From NCBI RefSeq assembly GCF_001306035.1, contig NZ_LGCM01000065.1, positions 124,001-188,000 of the forward strand: a stretch of DNA of 64,000 nt, read 5' to 3'. Numbering within the stretch: the stretch's first letter is position 1; the number at the start of each line of letters is the position of its first letter. A program made the position numbers and the translations under genes. This document shows, one piece after another, positions 2,985 through 50,062 of the stretch. A model generated the notes under the pieces. That model did no database searches and was not told where the DNA came from. It worked only from the letters and a program-made list of their open reading frames with translations. This stretch comes from Levilinea saccharolytica. GTDB lineage: Bacteria; Chloroflexota; Anaerolineae; Anaerolineales; Anaerolineaceae.

Positions 2985-3713
2985 TCAGCCGGTGATGCCC
3001 AGGTAGCTTTCCATCACACGCTTATCCTGCAGCAGATCGCTGCCGCGGCCTTCCATGCGGATGGTGCCCGTTTCCAGCACATAGGCGCGGTGGCACATTT
3101 CCAAGGCCAGCGAGGCGTTTTGTTCCACCACCAGAATGGTGAGGCCCAGCTCGCGGTTGAGCTTGACGATGGCGTCGAACATGGCGTCAATGACGATGGG
3201 GGCCAGACCCAGCGAAGGCTCATCCAGCAGCAACAGGCGCGGTTTCGACATCATGGCGCGGGCCACGGCCAGCATCTGCTGTTCCCCACCGGAGAGGGTG
3301 CCGCCGCGCTGGTGCAGGCGCTCCTTCAGGCGCGGGAAGAGCGCGTAGATTTCTTCCAGGGTTTCCTCCTGCTCCTTACGGTCTGAGCGGGTGTAGGCAC
3401 CCAACATCAGGTTTTCGCGCACCGTCAGGGGGGCGAAGATGCGGCGGCCTTCGGGAACCAGGGTGATGCCGTCGCGCACCACGCGCGAGGCGTCCTTCTT
3501 CAGCGGCTGGCCGTTGAACAGCACCGCCCCGGAGGTGAAGGTTTTGACGGCGGCGATGGTGCGCATCAGGGTGGATTTGCCCGCGCCGTTGGCGCCGATG
3601 ACGGCCACAATTTCGCCCGAGTCGACGTGCAGGTTGACGCTGTTCAGGGCGCAAATGCCCCCGTAATGCACCACCAGGTTCTGAACATCCAATAAAGGTG
3701 AGTTAGCGGACAT
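2985..3713 (-). CDS. livF: Branched-chain amino-acid-type ABC importer, ATPase LivF
   Basis: A 242-residue ATPase with Walker A GANGAGKST, signature LSGGEQQ and Walker B LLLLDEPSLGL. EGRRIFAPLTVRENL and the LVVEQNASLAL segment are typical of LivF. It energises uptake through the LivH/LivM permease together with LivG. I chose ATG 3713 (MSANSPLL), which has a GGGGAG eight bases upstream, over a TTG at 3728. The gene overlaps the end of livG by 11 bases, indicating translational coupling. It is the last gene of the operon. The substrate may be a branched-chain amino acid, another amino acid, an amide or urea; sequence alone does not decide. Confidence 0.9.
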   Translation of the reverse strand: MSANSPLLDVQNLVVHYGGICALNSVNLHVDSGEIVAVIGANGAGKSTLMRTIAAVKTFTSGAVLFNGQPLKKDASRVVRDGITLVPEGRRIFAPLTVRENLMLGAYTRSDRKEQEETLEEIYALFPRLKERLHQRGGTLSGGEQQMLAVARAMMSKPRLLLLDEPSLGLAPIVIDAMFDAIVKLNRELGLTILVVEQNASLALEMCHRAYVLETGTIRMEGRGSDLLQDKRVMESYLGITG

Positions 3714-43686: not shown

Positions 43687-44847
43687 ATGACGGATATCAT
43701 CATTGCAGGCATTGGGCAAATTCCCGTGGGCGAGCATTGGGAGCTTTCGCTGCGCAGCCAGGCGGCCAAGGCCATGCTGGCGGCGGTGCGCGACGCGGGC
43801 GGCATTCGTCCGCAGGCGCTGTATATCGGCAACTTTTTGGCCTCGGTGGTGTCGCACCAGTCGAACCTGGGCGCGCTCTTGGCCGAGAACGCCGGCATGA
43901 CCGGCATTGAGGCCTACACGGTGGAAGCCGCGGGGGCTTCGGGGGCGGGGGCCTTCCGCACGGGGTATCTGGCGGTGGCTTCCGGCTTTGTGGATGCGGC
44001 CCTGGTGGTGGGGGTGGAGAAGTACACCGACATGGTGGGGGCGGGCCTGGAAAGCGCCGCAGCCCAGGCCATGGATTATGACTACGAGGGCGTGCAGGGC
44101 CTTTCGGCGGTGGGGCAGGCGGGGCTGTTGATGCAGCGCTACCTGCACGAGTACCAGCCGCCGCGCTCAGCCTTTGCGGCTTTCCCGCTGCTGGCGCATG
44201 CCAACGCGGTGAACAACCCCAACGCCATGTTCCGCAAGGCGATTAAGCCGGAGACCTACGAGAAGGCCGGCATGGTGAGCGCACCGTTGAATTTATTCGA
44301 CGTGGCCCCCCTGGCGGATGGGGCGGCGGCGGTGCTGCTGACGCGCGCCAGTTTGCTGCCCAAGGATTTCCCCCATCCGCTGGTGCGGGTGAGCGGCTCC
44401 AGCGTGGTGGTGGACACCCTGGCCCTGCACGACCGCAGCGATCCGCTGGCTTTTGAGGCGGCGCGCATTTCGGTGGAGCAGGCCTGCAGCCAGGCGGGCA
44501 TTTTGCCCAAGGATGTGAATTTCTTTGAGCTGTGCGACAGCACCTCCATTTACGCGGCCCTCAGCCTGGAGGCGGCGGGCTTTGCGCCGCGCGGCGAAGG
44601 CTGGCGGCTGGCGGCGGAAGGTGCGCTGAACCTGGGCGGCAAACTGCCGGCGCTGACCCTTGGCGGGCTGAAGGCGCGCGGCAACCCCCTGGGCGCCACG
44701 GGCGTGTATCAGATTGTGGAAGCGGTGATGCAGCTGCGCGGGCAAGCCGGGGCCAACCAGGTGGCAGGAGCCCAGCGCGGCCTGGTGCAGTCTTTGGGCG
44801 GCCCGGCTTCCACGGCCGTCACCCATGTGCTGGAGCGTTTGGGATAG
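43687..44847 (+). CDS. Archaeal/SCP2-type thiolase-like protein lacking canonical catalytic residues
   Basis: A 386-residue thiolase-fold protein in the place where archaeal operons encode acetoacetyl-CoA thiolase. The nucleophile motif, normally VEAACASG, reads VEAAGASG with Gly83. The His of the family EVHD motif is replaced in ELCDSTS (Cys283). The His of GGLKAKGHPVGATG is replaced in GGLKARGNPLGATG (Asn333). The fold landmarks are otherwise well kept, so it is under selection. It may be a non-catalytic partner in the DUF35 complex, or a different C-C bond enzyme such as the Ltp2-type aldolases. Family residues are quoted from memory. Confidence 0.85.
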   Translation: MTDIIIAGIGQIPVGEHWELSLRSQAAKAMLAAVRDAGGIRPQALYIGNFLASVVSHQSNLGALLAENAGMTGIEAYTVEAAGASGAGAFRTGYLAVASGFVDAALVVGVEKYTDMVGAGLESAAAQAMDYDYEGVQGLSAVGQAGLLMQRYLHEYQPPRSAFAAFPLLAHANAVNNPNAMFRKAIKPETYEKAGMVSAPLNLFDVAPLADGAAAVLLTRASLLPKDFPHPLVRVSGSSVVVDTLALHDRSDPLAFEAARISVEQACSQAGILPKDVNFFELCDSTSIYAALSLEAAGFAPRGEGWRLAAEGALNLGGKLPALTLGGLKARGNPLGATGVYQIVEAVMQLRGQAGANQVAGAQRGLVQSLGGPASTAVTHVLERLG

Positions 44848-44938
44848 CTTTTGACAGATCCGTGCGCGGGTCTGATAGGAATTGATAGTATCTTACCGAT
44901 ACACTACGGGTTGTAACGCAAAGAAAAGGAGACAGATC

Positions 44939-45340
44939 ATGGAGATTCCTCGCCATTGGAGAATTAAGAAACAACGCTACGCGCTGGTGGGCGAAGTGTG
45001 CCCGCATTGTGACGCGAAAATCTTCCCGCCGCGGGATGTGTGCCCGGAGTGCGGCGGCGAAGCCAAGACCCCCTTTGCCTTCACGGGGCGGGGTGAGATT
45101 TATTCGTACACGGTGATGAACGACGCCCCGGCGGGGTATCAGGAATCCACGCCCTACACGGTGGCGCTGGTGAAGTTGCAAGAGGGGCCGATGGTGACGG
45201 CGCAGCTGACCGACCTGGGCAGCCAGCCGGTGGAAATTGGCATGCCGGTGGAAATGGTCACGCGGCGCATCCGCTCGGATGGGGATGAGCGCGGTATGTT
45301 GGTGTACGGGTATAAGTTCCGGCCGGTAATGCAGGCATAG
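44939..45340 (+). CDS. DUF35 zinc-ribbon OB-fold protein, acyl-CoA scaffold
   Basis: A 133-residue protein. A rubredoxin-like zinc ribbon (CPHC...CPEC, about residues 21-37) precedes an OB-fold (about 45-128: GRGEIYSYTVMNDAP and a VEMVTRRIRSDGD strand). In methanogens its homologue binds the shared CoA between thiolase and HMG-CoA synthase. The neighbouring genes fit the same complex here. ATG 44939 has AAGGAG seven bases upstream. The 91-base gap before it holds a TTGACA at 44851 and a shared GTCTGATAG, so it may have extra control. Confidence 0.9.
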   Translation: MEIPRHWRIKKQRYALVGEVCPHCDAKIFPPRDVCPECGGEAKTPFAFTGRGEIYSYTVMNDAPAGYQESTPYTVALVKLQEGPMVTAQLTDLGSQPVEIGMPVEMVTRRIRSDGDERGMLVYGYKFRPVMQA

Positions 45341-45423
45341 GAAATGCTGGTGTATCCCCACAGGGGGGACGGTGTGGGTGAAGCCCTCGCAGAGGGTAAG
45401 TTCCGGCCGGTGATGCAGGCATA
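45312..45423. repeat. Duplicated 3' end of the DUF35 gene
   Basis: The last 27 bases of the gene (45312-45338, beginning TAAGTTCCGGCCGGT) recur at 45397-45423 with one mismatch. The sequence ahead of the second copy (ATGCTGGTGTA) also resembles the gene, interrupted by about 40 unrelated bases. It looks like a local tandem duplication that later received an insertion. Confidence 0.65.
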
Positions 45424-45441
45424 AGCAGATATTGAGGTTTC

Positions 45442-45469
45442 AACCGCCTTCCAGAGATGGAGGGCGGTT
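45442..45469 (+). terminator. Terminator of the mevalonate cluster; DUF559-cassette hairpin family
   Basis: AACCGCCTTCC and GGAGGGCGGTT pair around AGAGAT and are followed by TTTT. The same stem and loop sequence recurs at six other sites between 46 and 64 kb. Confidence 0.8.
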
Positions 45470-45481
45470 TTTTGTATTCCA

Positions 45482-45580
45482 CCCTCCCCTAATTTCTGCG
45501 AAATTTGGGGAGGGAATGCTTGAGAGCGCTGCTGCGGATGACCTCACCCGGCGATTCCCCAATTATTGCAATACTTGGGG
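45482..45580. repeat. Two short palindromes, each followed by AGGGAATGCT
   Basis: At 45482-45514 CCCTCCCC plus AATTTC pair with their complements around a three-base loop. At 45557-45580 CCCCAA pairs with TTGGGG. Both are followed by AGGGAATGCT. They resemble the larger palindrome in front of the DUF559 gene and may be earlier insertions of the same kind of element. TATACT at 45592-45597 follows. Confidence 0.6.
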
Positions 45581-45631
45581 AGGGAATGCTGTATACTAAG
45601 AGTAAGAATCTCTAGTGCAACACAATGATCT

Positions 45632-45663
45632 CTCCCCCATTTTAGGTTTTCAAAATGGGGGAG
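45632..45663. repeat. 5' palindrome of the DUF559 cassette
   Basis: A perfect 12-bp inverted repeat (CTCCCCCATTTT with its complement) around an eight-base loop lies 14 bases before the DUF559 start. A partly decayed copy occurs at 50108-50136. Confidence 0.75.
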
Positions 45664-45677
45664 GCAGGAAGGGGCCA

Positions 45678-46037
45678 ATGGCGCATCGGCGCACGCGCAT
45701 CTCAACCTTCCAATACGCCGCCCAGCTCCGCCATCACCTGACGGAGGCAGAGGCCCGATTGTGGCAGGTGCTGCGCGCCCACCGCCTGAACGATGTTCAT
45801 TTTCGCCGCCAGCACGCCATCGGGCCGTATATTGTGGATTTCTGCGCCCCGCGCCAGAAATTAATCATCGAGGTGGACGGCAGCCAGCACCTGTTCCAAC
45901 AAGCGTATGACGCTGAGCGCACGGCTTATCTGGAGGCGAAAGGCTACCGGGTGCTGCGCTTTTGGAATCATGAGGTGATGGAGAATTTGGAAGGTGTGCT
46001 GTTGAGGATTATGGAGATGGGGAGTTCAGGGAGGTAA
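45678..46037 (+). CDS. DUF559 (Vsr-like) endonuclease-domain protein
   Basis: A 119-residue protein. The N-terminal RTRISTFQYAAQLRHHLTEAEARLWQVLR helix region, then FRRQHAIGPYIVDF, RQKLIIEVDGSQH and a C-terminal RFWNHEVMENLEGVL are the standard DUF559 landmarks. The Asp of VDF and the Glu-x-Asp of IEVDG form a PD-(D/E)xK-like site related to very-short-patch-repair endonucleases. The biological role is unsettled; such genes are often multicopy and mobile-looking. ATG 45678 follows a GGAAGG. It is enclosed by a 5' palindrome and a 3' terminator hairpin, both repeated elsewhere in this window. Confidence 0.85.
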   Translation: MAHRRTRISTFQYAAQLRHHLTEAEARLWQVLRAHRLNDVHFRRQHAIGPYIVDFCAPRQKLIIEVDGSQHLFQQAYDAERTAYLEAKGYRVLRFWNHEVMENLEGVLLRIMEMGSSGR

Positions 46038-46043
46038 CGAGAA

Positions 46044-46068
46044 CGCCCCTCCAGAGATGGAGGGCGGT
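46044..46068 (+). terminator. Terminator of the DUF559 gene
   Basis: The conserved CTCC-AGAGAT-GGAG stem-loop with flanking GC pairs is followed by TTTTTG, seven bases after the stop codon. It is the same hairpin family as at 45442. Confidence 0.75.
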
Positions 46069-46241
46069 TTTTGTGTGTAGATTGCAGTATTTTGTATAAT
46101 TGCAGTGGTGGGGCGTGATGTTCGTTACCAGAGATTACTAAATTCTGCGCATTGTCCACGCCCCAGCGTAAGTAACGCCAGCTGTTAGCACGCCCCTTGC
46201 AAAACAAACATATTTTCACACTATGTATAAAGAAGGCTAGG

Positions 46242-46565
46242 ATGATGAAAAAGAAAATCGCTGTTGGCTTATTACTTGGGGTGGTTGCTGGCGTACTTGA
46301 TGTAATTCCCATGTTACTTCAAGGCTTAACTTGGGACGCAAATTTATCGGCGTTTTTTCTGTGGGTTGTGTCAGGCTTTATGTTATCCACATCTAATTTG
46401 ACAGCACATCCAATCCTCAAAGGCATAATTATTCCATTTCTTTGTTTACTCCCAAGCACTTTTATAATTGGTTGGAATAATCCTTTTTCTTTGCTTCCAA
46501 TAGCCGTTATGACGCTAATTTTAGGAGCGTTGTTGGGATATACCTACAACAAATTTGCAAGATAG
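46242..46565 (+). CDS. Small AT-rich four-helix membrane protein, unknown
   Basis: A 107-residue protein with four predicted hydrophobic helices: LLLGVVAGVLDVIPMLLQGL, LSAFFLWVVSGFMLS, ILKGIIIPFLCLLPSTFII and LLPIAVMTLILGALLGYTY. I do not recognise a family. Two adjacent ATG codons (46242, 46245) could start it. Codon use is AT-rich, unlike the flanking genes, which suggests recent acquisition. It ends 12 bases before the selenoprotein candidate and is probably co-transcribed with it. Confidence 0.6.
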   Translation: MMKKKIAVGLLLGVVAGVLDVIPMLLQGLTWDANLSAFFLWVVSGFMLSTSNLTAHPILKGIIIPFLCLLPSTFIIGWNNPFSLLPIAVMTLILGALLGYTYNKFAR

Positions 46566-46577
46566 GATCAGATAAAG

Positions 46578-46823
46578 ATGATTCCCATTGAAAAAATGAA
46601 AGATAGTGCAAGCATAGATTTTGAAGCAGTTATTACCTGCCCAAAGTGCCAATTCGCTAAACACGAGCAAATGCCGCCCGACACTTGAGCTATTATCTAT
46701 AAATGCTCCCGTTGCGGGGCTATACTTCGACCCAAAGCAGGTGATTGCTGTGTTTTTTGTTCGTATTCAGATAAACATTGCCCATCGAAACAACGAGAAA
46801 TACTTGGCGATGTTGAGGGTTGA
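46578..46823 (+). CDS. GDCCVxC-domain protein with in-frame UGA: probable selenoprotein
   Basis: An 81-residue frame runs from ATG 46578 to TGA 46821-46823 if the TGA at 46686-46688 is read as residue 37. It has CPKC (21-24), then QMPPDT-U-AIIYKCSRCG and the signature KAGDCCVFCSYSD, then CPSKQ. In the family as I remember it, the motif is MPTDAC or MPTDxU followed by a Y-x-C, so the UGA falls exactly at the Cys/Sec position and the reading frame is maintained on both sides. The family is annotated as (seleno)protein, with a redox or metal role suspected. A nonsense-mutated Cys copy is the alternative. Confidence 0.7.
46707..46719 (+). promoter_or_regulatory. Candidate bacterial SECIS hairpin
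   Basis: TCCCG-TTG-CGGGG can fold 18 bases after the UGA, with four canonical pairs and one G-U pair and a G in the loop, possibly with a bulged base extending the stem. Bacterial SECIS elements lie directly downstream of UGA inside the coding region, as here. The fold also coincides with codons for the CSRCG zinc knuckle. Confidence 0.4.
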
Positions 46824-47228
46824 TAAAAGCAAGTGAGTCTTAAGGTCAAAAGCGTGCCAACAAAGTGCGCACTGGACACGGGCGAGCGCTGCCTGCACTT
46901 TCAGGGCTGCGACTCCAACCCCGCCAGTAACGCGGGGCAGGCGAGCGGATTCGGCATCTGGTGGTTTTGTCCGCAAAATCCCGCGCCCGCCGGTAACGCC
47001 TGCCGTAAAATCAATACTCTCACCTCTCCCCCGCAGACCGAGCCGCGTGTAGGGGTACCTTTTTCAGGGCGCCCACAGCAGCCTGATCCATCCTTTTTTC
47101 TCACCCACAATTTTGGAAAATGTGATAAATTAGATAAAGATGGTGTATAAATAACTGGATCATGATCCGTGCTGATCTGCAGGCGGATCCTGTGGACGGC
47201 CAGCGAAGGTACCGGATCGGAGATACGG
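46824..47228. other. Intergenic region, no gene recognised
   Basis: The left part is GC-rich with two short AGTAACGC/GGTAACGCC motifs (around 46927 and 46992). The right part (47110-47155) is AT-rich with a TATAAAT at about 47146 that could serve as -10 for the kinase-like gene. No coding frame is convincing. Confidence 0.4.
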
Positions 47229-47768
47229 ATGCAGCCCATATATTTATTGGTTGGCCCTCCCGCGGTGGGCAAGAGCACCACGAGCCGAGCATTGGCCTCG
47301 AAATTCAGCAGAAGCATCCACATCCCTGTCGACGACATCCGCGATATGGTTGTGTCTGGCCTGGTTCTGCCGAGCTTGGATTGGAGCCGTGAACTGGTTC
47401 AGCAAGTCGGCCTGGCTCGGGAGAGTGTGATTCATATGGCTTTCCAGTATCAGAAGGCCGGTTTTGCTGTGGTGATGGACGATTTCTTCGACCCGCATCA
47501 ATTGAGCGAGTATCGGGCATTTGCCGACCAGCCCGGGATCCATAAGGTGCTGCTGCTGCCGGAGCAGGAAACCGCCCATGCGCGCAATTTGAAGCGCAGC
47601 GGGGATGATCCGGCGCGTGAGTACATTGATATCGGCATCCGTTCGGTGTACGCACAGCTCAATGCTTCGATGGAGTCTCTGCGTGCAGCCGGCTGGATCC
47701 TGATCGACACAACCCACCTGAGTATTGAGGAGACAGTCAGAGAAATCCTCAGCCGCAGCTCAGCCTGA
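47229..47768 (+). CDS. P-loop kinase-like protein (zeta-toxin/AAA_33-like)
   Basis: A 179-residue P-loop NTPase. Walker A is GPPAVGKST near the N-terminus. IPVDDIRDMVV supplies the acidic residues of a kinase-type DxD, and VVMDDFFD is a Walker B-like strand; an Arg-rich lid (HARNLKRSGDD) follows. This is the layout of small kinases such as chloramphenicol phosphotransferase, zeta toxin or shikimate-like kinases. No antitoxin gene precedes it, so a zeta-toxin role is not supported. ATG 47229 follows GGAG. Confidence 0.7.
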   Translation: MQPIYLLVGPPAVGKSTTSRALASKFSRSIHIPVDDIRDMVVSGLVLPSLDWSRELVQQVGLARESVIHMAFQYQKAGFAVVMDDFFDPHQLSEYRAFADQPGIHKVLLLPEQETAHARNLKRSGDDPAREYIDIGIRSVYAQLNASMESLRAAGWILIDTTHLSIEETVREILSRSSA

Positions 47769-48121
47769 CACCGCGGCGGCATACCCCCCATCGCTGCAAA
47801 CTCGATTGGCTGCCTTACGGGCAGAATGAAGAAGAACTAAGATTTGGAAAAGAGGGTCATTGACATGTGGATGGGTTGCCAATGGTATCTTATGGGTGAA
47901 TATGCAAAAATTAAACCCTCCCAGTGCTATGAAACGCCCTAACTCAAGGTGGTAGGCTGCGGGGTGCGGAGCGCGGCGGGGGTTTCCTGTGACACTGAAG
48001 GGGTCGAGAAAGCGGCAGCGAACCATTGACAGGTTTTGCCCGAAGGTATGGATGTTGATCACCCATTTGGGGCCAGGTGCGAACCTGAAGCATCGATGAT
48101 GATCGTTGAGGAATGATCGTG
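47769..48121. other. Intergenic region with isolated TTGACA hexamers
   Basis: About 350 bases without a gene. TTGACA occurs at 47860 and 48026, neither with a good -10 at 16-18 bases. No stable terminator was seen after the kinase-like gene. Confidence 0.35.
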
Positions 48122-50062
48122 ATGAATCAATACCTACTCAAACAAAAAACCGTACTCTTCAGCTTGCTTTTGGTGCTGCTCATCAGCCTGGTATGGCCTT
48201 CTCCTGCTCTGGCCCAGGCAACCCCGATTCCGCCAAACATTACACTGAGCGGCAGCTGCGACGGTGCCGGAAATTCTATCTTCACCATCACCAACACGGG
48301 CGGGGCAATGACGGTCAATTACACCTGGGAGCTGTATCAGAACGGTGTTTTCCTGACTTCGGGCCCATTTACTCTGACCGCCGCCGGAAACACAGGCAGC
48401 TCGCTCCAGTTAACGATTAATGGGCTGTACGGTCAGTTGACGGTTGTGATCCGCGACAACAACGGCGTGCAGGTGACCAGCGGCGCGGCCACTTGTGCCA
48501 CGCCCACCCCCACAGTCACCCGCACCCCCACCGCAACCCCGATTCCGCCAAGCATTACACTGAGCGGCAGCTGCGACGGTGCCGGAAATTCTGTCTTCAC
48601 CATCACCAACACGGGCGGGGCAATGACGGTCAATTACACCTGGGAGCTGTATCAGAACAGCGTTTTCCTGACTTCGGGCCCGTTCACTCTGACCGCCGCC
48701 GGAAACACAGGCAGCTCGCTCCAGTTAACGATTAGCGGGCTGTACGGCCAGCTAACGGTTGTGATCCGCGACAACAACGGCGTGCAGGTGGCCAGCGGCG
48801 CGGCCGATTGTGCCACGCCCACCCCCACAGTCACCCGCACCGGTACATCCACGCACACCGCCACCGTCACCTGGACCCCCACGAATACCGAAACTTTCAC
48901 GATGACCCCATCCCCAACGGTGACAGACACAGCGACTCCGACCCCTACGAATACAGAAACTTTTACCCCGGCTCCATCCCTGACGCCGACCAACACAGCT
49001 ACAGATACGCTGACCCCTACGAATACAGCCACGTTTACCGTGACTCCATCCCCGACGGCAACCAGCACAGTCACGGCGACCCCCATCCCCCCCACCATCA
49101 CAAACACGCTGCCCCCGGCGCCGCTGGTTATGGATACGGTTCCGAAGGATGGCGCAGCGCTGAGCAAAGGCCCAACCCAGTTGAAGGTCACTTTTGACAA
49201 AGATGTGATTCATGACGGCTCGGTCAATGCCGCGGATAACCCCATTAACTATCTCCTGGTGGAACAGGGGCTCAATCAAACCCTTGAAACGCTCACCTGC
49301 TCTGGCGGGCGGCAAGGCGACGACAAACAAAAGAACATCGCCAGCGCGGTGTACAGCAGCAATTCCGGCGCCGGCCCATTTCAGGCCGTGCTCAATCTGT
49401 CAGCGCCGCTGCCGGTTGGCGTCTACCGGCTGTTGGTCTGCGGAAGCACCTCCATTCAGGATTCGTATGGGAATAAGATCAACGGCGGCCTGGATACCGT
49501 GGCGAATTTCCGCGTGACGGCAGCGAAGGACGACCCCGAAAAGCTGCCTGATACAGGCTTCATGCCTGGGATTATGGCGGAACTTCCACGTCAGCCCAAA
49601 GAAAAGGCCTACGCCGCGACGGAATTGACCCTGCAAATCCCTAAACTGGGGTTGAAAATGCCCATCCTGGGCGTGCCTTTTGTCAGCAGCGAATGGGATG
49701 TATCCTGGTTGGGGAACAATGCCGGTTGGCTGGAGAACTCCTCCTTCCCCACCTGGTCTGGCAACTCGGTGCTGACCGGGCACGTGTGGAATGCGGATAA
49801 TACCCCGGGGATGTTTGCACACCTGAACAAGCTGCGCTACGGCGACAAAATTGAGGTGCGGATGGCAGAACAGCGCTATACCTATGAAGTGACAGAGAAT
49901 CTGCGCATCCAGCCTGACCAGATTGACCTGGCATTTGAGTCAAAATCGTCCAGCTGGCTCACACTGCTGACCTGTGAGGGTTTCGATGAAGAGACAGCCA
50001 CCTACGGCGCGCGCCGTATGGTGCGCGCTGTGCTGGTCAACATCACGATCCATTCGCCGTAG
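48122..50062 (+). CDS. Secreted protein with duplicated domains, Thr/Pro stalk, LPDTG motif and C-terminal sortase domain
   Basis: A 646-residue protein. A signal peptide (cleavage after SPALA) leads into two nearly identical 105-residue beta-rich domains and a Thr/Pro-rich stalk of about residues 235-330. A Big_5-like domain (about 335-465, [20 protein letters not shown]) follows, then LPDTG at 475-479. The C-terminus is a class E/F-like sortase domain with His554 (TGHVW), Cys618 (LLTCEG) and an Arg among 631-635. Sortases cleave sorting signals and transfer proteins to amines; here the enzyme is itself displayed on a long stalk. No hydrophobic tail follows LPDTG, so it is not a standard sorting signal. 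Confidence 0.85.
48218..48847 (+). repeat. Two near-identical 315-base repeats inside the sortase-domain gene
   Basis: Unit one is 48218-48532 and unit two 48533-48847, each 105 codons, beginning GCAACCCCGATTCCGCCAA. They differ at only a few positions, so the duplication is recent or homogenised. It doubles a beta-sandwich-like domain of about 85 residues and part of the TPT linker. Confidence 0.85.

Follow-up and report, generated by a model that had tools for sequence, protein, structure and literature searches.

A probable selenoprotein gene of the GDCCVxC (GOS_B) family in Levilinea saccharolytica and its relatives in Chloroflexota

The closest described relatives of the gene analyzed here are the GOS_B proteins, one of seven new selenoprotein families predicted in 2008, for which the Global Ocean Sampling set gave 11 Sec and 125 Cys sequences and a SECIS element was predicted (PMC2398784). 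A 2022 review includes GOS_B in its list, where no domain is given (PMC9312934), and the table of a 2026 review equates 'Hypothetical protein GOS_B (GOS metagenome)' with the family model NF041374, with reference to the Global Ocean Sampling study of 2008 (PMC13188914). The latter review also names two Sec-containing metal proteins, the putative mercuric transport protein PF02411 and the metal-binding protein NF041115 (PMC13188914). In the passages of these three papers that concern GOS_B, no link with mercury is drawn (PMC13188914, PMC2398784, PMC9312934). Literature searches by motif name gave nothing under GDCCVxC and only papillomavirus papers under GDCCV, and a search for selenoproteome studies with Anaerolineae found nothing. 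As the family is already catalogued as a selenoprotein family, our study constitutes a good annotation and not a discovery; the metal-gene neighbours and the association of Sec with a His residue are added here.

The window, that is, the whole 64-kb stretch of L. saccharolytica DNA that was analyzed, lies on a 313-kb contig of an assembly of 4.23 Mb in 65 contigs (97.65% complete, 4.94% contamination). The features of interest are the following.

46242 to 46565, plus strand: AT-rich ORF ending 12 bases 5' of the GDCCVxC gene, with a DUF1097 match of 16.6 bits, below the cut-off of 24.6
46578 to 46823, plus strand: GDCCVxC (seleno)protein gene, 81 residues with the predicted Sec37, from the frame, the motif and the family model
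46686 to 46688, plus strand: in-frame TGA, the predicted Sec37 codon, from the alignment with relatives
46705 to 46720, plus strand: SECIS-like hairpin, stem 46705-46709 with 46716-46720 and a six-base loop with G at its second base, in the register common to relatives

The frame opens with an ATG at 46578, which has AGGA ten bases 5' of it, and closes with a terminal TGA (46821-46823) directly followed by TAA. When the internal TGA is translated as Sec, the protein shows CPKC, MPPDT-U, YKCSRCG, GDCCVFC and KHCPSKQ, in that order. We found that this protein, with Sec entered as Cys, matches NF041374, 'GDCCVxC domain-containing (seleno)protein', with 89.5 bits against a curated cut-off of 40 (E 1.2e-25), and that the same model recovers the gene on the genome, with the TGA inside, at 85.7 bits; the GDCCVxC motif and the conserved Cys pattern of the family are both present. 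The initial annotation had described a frame that stays protein-like across the TGA at 46686, with CPKC, MPPDT, YKCSRCG and GDCCVFC around it, and its coordinates and motifs were all confirmed. A gene that ordinary callers split is rescued in this way.

The AT-rich module in which the gene had been placed is real at the local scale, with 39.8% GC over 46241-46823 vs 60.1% for the 64-kb window. The ORF at 46242-46565 has no family match at E 1e-5 and was not recognised beside relatives of the GDCCVxC gene. Rfam at gathering scores gave nothing in the window, and ARAGORN found no tRNA in it. The AT-rich pair might be an integron cassette. Just 5' of this pair, near-identical 31-base terminator-like repeats (45442-45472 and 46042-46072) flank an ORF at 45615-46037, which presumably encodes a DUF559 protein. 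In the DNA of G021, a genome of the same genus, the left flank of the gene is matched at 97% and then the match breaks up; pieces of the stretch 44800-48300 are found up to 34 kb apart on its contig C23 and in a changed order, which denotes a variable region.

The genome search recovered selA (532.7 bits), selD (356.7 bits), one copy of selB above the cut-off and one tRNA-Sec (selC) above the cut-off (75.7 bits), whose anticodon is TCA (UCA in the RNA) according to ARAGORN. In this sense, the selenocysteine machinery that had been supposed for the host or the donor of the module, and for which a search of these four genes had been proposed, is present in the host. Additionally, the selD gene of the host (L021, contig C10 of G000, 81857-82789, minus strand) has itself one in-frame TGA, in SSCAGUASKL, and from this CAGU site it is likely that selD encodes a second selenoprotein of the host. 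Genome G021 also contains selA and a tRNA-Sec, and of the 396 class genomes 318 have selA; the machinery is therefore a property of the group, and its presence is not specific. Among the 20 genomes with a TGA copy of the GDCCVxC gene, tRNA-Sec scores above 60 bits in 16 (G469 reaches only 47.3 bits), selA is found in 14, and at least one of the two in 17; the three genomes in which neither was found are assemblies of at least 490 contigs with a completeness of 78-85%. As a separator of Sec from Cys carriers selA fails (14/20 vs 11/15 of the genomes with Cys copies only). Since selA is so frequent in the Cys-only genomes, the Sec machinery permits Sec at the column and does not dictate the choice.

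The family was matched in 38 of the 396 genomes of the class. Its 40 match rows there have one TGA inside in 20 cases and none in the other 20, four of which are short or weak; a short TGA row of G819 (38 aa) was left out of the rows examined, and G365, whose match ends short of the column, was left out of the Cys carriers. The systematic search for Sec copies covered Chloroflexota. For other groups, the best 80 of at least 574 confirmed relatives from the genome-contig scan were taken, with Cys at the column in 78 and TGA in two, L024 and L026 (the latter was removed, being the same stretch as L018). Furthermore, 140 loci were read without demanding either residue, and the motif was present in 138, with Cys in 114 and TGA in 24 (23 distinct); one extra row in this reading matched by chance out of frame, and L019 scores below the threshold and lacks the motif. 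To enter the hairpin comparison, a row had to carry Cys or TGA at the column and to be free of TAA and TAG upstream; the unrestricted reading dropped both demands. L132 (G438) has TGA at the same codon and was missed by the first motif search because it carries GICCVYC instead of GDCCVxC; it stands outside the 22 Sec loci of the hairpin, covariation and tree comparisons. As regards Cys copies, L160 lies outside the 114 loci of the hairpin comparison, and L131 lies inside these and outside the 114 of the unrestricted reading.

In agreement with the proposal that this position is Cys or Sec in the family, all 138 motif loci have Cys or TGA there, so the in-frame UGA of the window aligns with the Cys of homologues as is expected of a bacterial selenoprotein. 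A Cys-to-stop pseudogene, or a sequencing error, that falls by chance on the Cys/Sec column may be considered for a gene in a variable, AT-rich stretch, the more so as G021 has no family match and is rearranged at the locus. However, TGA occupies this codon in another 22 distinct loci, and no other stop was found between the first and the last conserved Cys in the Sec loci. Disruption elsewhere in the homologues had been named beforehand as a sign of a pseudogene; the only other stop in the conserved core of the 138 loci is a TGA in L032, a Bacteroidales copy, at the second Cys of CPxC. This copy (MAG fen_974, gene near 3040-3204) has Cys at the usual Sec column, and its TGA may be either a second Sec site of the family or the mark of a broken copy. 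Two genomes combine both forms: L155 (G611, contig C21, 23550-23962) consists of tandem GDCCVxC genes, the first with TGA and the second without, the Sec copy being very divergent, and G469 carries a Sec copy (L124, contig C664) and a Cys copy (L134, contig C133).

Bacterial SECIS elements are hairpins that follow the UGA at a short distance and have a G among the first bases of the loop. The initial annotation had noticed a small hairpin about 18 bases downstream of the TGA and had proposed to fold this region. Its place was right, the stem beginning 17 nt after the TGA, but taken alone the hairpin of the window is weak and within the shuffle range (z of -0.02, 0.25 and -1.29 for 61, 48 and 30 nt), with 598 of 20000 synonymous recodings as stable, which is marginal. 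The register of best energy for the window sequence is a different one, in which CCCG pairs with CGGG around a UUG loop, with a bulge. Across the relatives, by contrast, a covarying hairpin marks the TGA loci. Bases 17-21 after the TGA pair with bases 28-32, all five pairs being formed in 19 of the 22 Sec loci and in none of the 114 Cys loci (mean pairs formed, 4.55 vs 2.40), and folding energy against synonymous recodings has a mean z of -1.95 in Sec and -0.22 in Cys loci; the second loop base is G in 20 of the 22 Sec loci. Both partners vary in two of the pairs (CG, UA and UG in one; GC, AU, CG, GU and UG in the other), a count that is no better than in shuffles (271/500). The covariation score is 0.348 vs 0.159 shuffled, with 0/500 shuffles as high, and it drops to 0.003-0.194 when the partner is slid by 1 to 3 columns; because the rows are related, the shuffle figure is not a probability, and the Cys rows, which code for a similar peptide without the hairpin, are the stronger control. 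RNAalifold finds the same helix unprompted. L130, L137 and L155 break shared pairs, although in L130 and L137 a shifted hairpin forms close to the usual position, and five of the 22 Sec loci (L123, L124, L126, L127 and L136) give a different structure when 42 nt are folded to minimum energy. Stem length in a free register was also tried as a discriminator of Sec and Cys loci and gave no separation; the position-specific comparison alone separates them.

Given the NF041374 match, the selA, selB, selC and selD genes of the host, the Cys-or-TGA column and the hairpin in the Sec loci, we consider with high confidence that 46578-46823 is a selenoprotein gene and not a pseudogene, encoding a small zinc-ribbon-like GDCCVxC (GOS_B) selenoprotein, as had been suspected from the letters of the window. 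An accidental stop, in favor of which the lack of significance of the window hairpin by shuffling might also be cited, is very improbable in view of the covarying hairpin 3' of the TGA and the Sec machinery of the host. For the selenoprotein, SelB together with Sec-tRNA(UCA) would read the UGA at 46686 as selenocysteine, and the hairpin starting 17 nt 3' of it, inside the coding sequence, would direct the insertion. Read-through by itself is silent on which residue goes in, and the UGA might be read as another residue or by ordinary suppression; we give hardly any credit to this, since Cys occupies the column in 114 loci without TGA, the host has SelB and a tRNA-Sec with a UCA anticodon, and the shared hairpin is complete in TGA loci only. 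Insertion of Sec thus remains the preferred reading, and with it Sec in the GDCCVxC family extends across one Chloroflexota branch.

Concerning the history of the gene, a tree of 136 rows and 54 columns, whose bootstrap is unsettled, needs two changes of the Sec label (2-3 in bootstraps) vs 20.8 when shuffled. All 22 Sec rows fall in one group of 28 of this tree (81/84, not a starred fork), which also holds six Cys rows (L122, L131, L134 and L151-L153). The window copy groups with L117, L120 and L121, from another family of the order, and with L024, at 80-84% identity to this set, while the same-family copy L018 is only 62% identical and is not in its tree group. This grouping, the absence of a family match in G021, of the same genus, and the 39.8% GC in a 60.1% window suggest, with modest support, that the window copy may have been acquired, or lost in sisters.

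Directly ahead of the last conserved Cys, 21 of the 22 Sec rows carry His, as against 0 of the 114 Cys rows, and L132, the Sec copy outside the 22, also has it. Three Cys rows that nest among the Sec rows (L122, L131 and L134) have TLC where their Sec kin have mostly HHC; in genome G469, the Cys copy L134 is without the His. Since independent switches between Cys and Sec are few, this possible coupling of Sec and His in the GDCCVxC family is a lead and not a proof.

Neighbour genes of the relatives include several of mercury and heavy-metal handling. Within 300 bases, the 83 neighbours at genome-contig loci include HMA (9), MerT (4), MerR (3) and pyridine-nucleotide oxidoreductases (4), and the 67 scanned in Chloroflexota, a set in which five of the genomes belong to one genus, include MerR (12), HMA (7), E1-E2 ATPase (7), MerB (4) and ArsR (4); these counts are raw, without a matched background, and metal genes make up the minority of the neighbours. 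Together they represent 150 of 173 selected neighbours, the rest having been dropped by eye, mainly as reverse-strand or short ORFs. Curated cut-offs were passed by a MerR beside a Sec copy (L119), a MerP (L061), a MerTP fusion (L098) and a heavy-metal ATPase (L107), and MerB was recognised by Pfam at L159; two MerA-like reductases beside relatives scored below the MerA cut-off. A MerR-like regulator lies just 5' of the Sec copies L118, L119, L123 and L125-L128, individually confirmed by profile for L119 and L128. The annotation of four plasmids gives merR, MerT and GDCCVxC before a Tn3 transposase in one, MerT-GDCCVxC in another, merTP-GDCCVxC in a third and no mer gene in the fourth; plasmid H10 was chosen because its row already named MerT. 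A mer-type context is thus found for a share of the relatives, and in the window no mer or metal gene is adjacent. A MerB search gave no match in the host genome and none in the control genomes either, so its negative result carries no weight.

Over 77 rows, nine columns hold Cys or Sec without exception. The profile matched PDB entry 1qyp, which we take to be a zinc ribbon, with E 5e-4, and gave weak matches to rubredoxins; for the predicted model (mean pLDDT 74.4), PDB gave no match below E 0.66 and no thioredoxin-fold match of note. Zinc would probably be bound by the CPxC...CxxC pair. The Sec, together with the CC..C cluster, would probably bind ions of soft metals, Hg(II) being the likeliest, or carry out thiol/selenol exchange; soft-metal binding or thiol redox is our best functional guess. 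Judged by chemistry and by the genes beside relatives, a soft-metal binding role of the GDCCVxC protein seems to have almost as much for it as against it. For the window copy this role is inferred from kin, because it has no mer neighbour and the ORF upstream is small, AT-rich and below threshold for DUF1097. The protein might instead be a selenoprotein of general thiol or peroxide redox function, the mer neighbours reflecting co-transfer on metal-resistance elements. Sec sites of other families are mostly redox sites, and many relatives, like the window copy, have no recognised metal gene adjacent. On the other hand, MerT or merTP lies directly 5' of GDCCVxC in different phyla, a MerR-like regulator precedes several Sec copies, and the protein of the window shows no CxxU or UxxC motif and no thioredoxin-fold match of note, so that we see the general redox function as a real possibility, if a somewhat doubtful one. 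Returning to soft metals, and with rather more doubt than confidence, it may be proposed that GDCCVxC/GOS_B proteins serve mer-type operons as dedicated handlers of soft metals (Hg), and that in one Chloroflexota branch the key thiol became a selenol with a His beside the last Cys, both being lost on return to Cys. If true, a natural Sec/His mercury or selenol site would exist in a protein as small as about 70-80 residues.

Compared with known systems, the GDCCVxC protein has the CPxC...CxxCG arrangement in common with zinc-ribbon and rubredoxin knuckles (1qyp, rubredoxins and, weakly, LysW), and it differs from them in five further Cys/Sec columns, GDCCVxC included, and in the lack of a confident structural match. 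PF02411, NF041115 and MerT_CopZ_Se (NF045683) likewise place Sec in proteins that handle mercury or heavy metals, but they are other families, none of which matched the window protein at E up to 1. With GOS_B/NF041374 it shares the family model, the motif and the Sec or Cys at one column, and for a GOS_B sequence a SECIS element was drawn in 2008 (PMC2398784), the identity of GOS_B with NF041374 being taken from the table of the 2026 review (PMC13188914) and not from a comparison of GOS_B sequences. In contrast to GOS_B, the window copy and its closest kin are found in Chloroflexota genomes, and the 'hypothetical protein' selenoprotein family of 2008 gains two testable ideas, a role in the handling of mercury or heavy metals and a coupling of Sec with His.
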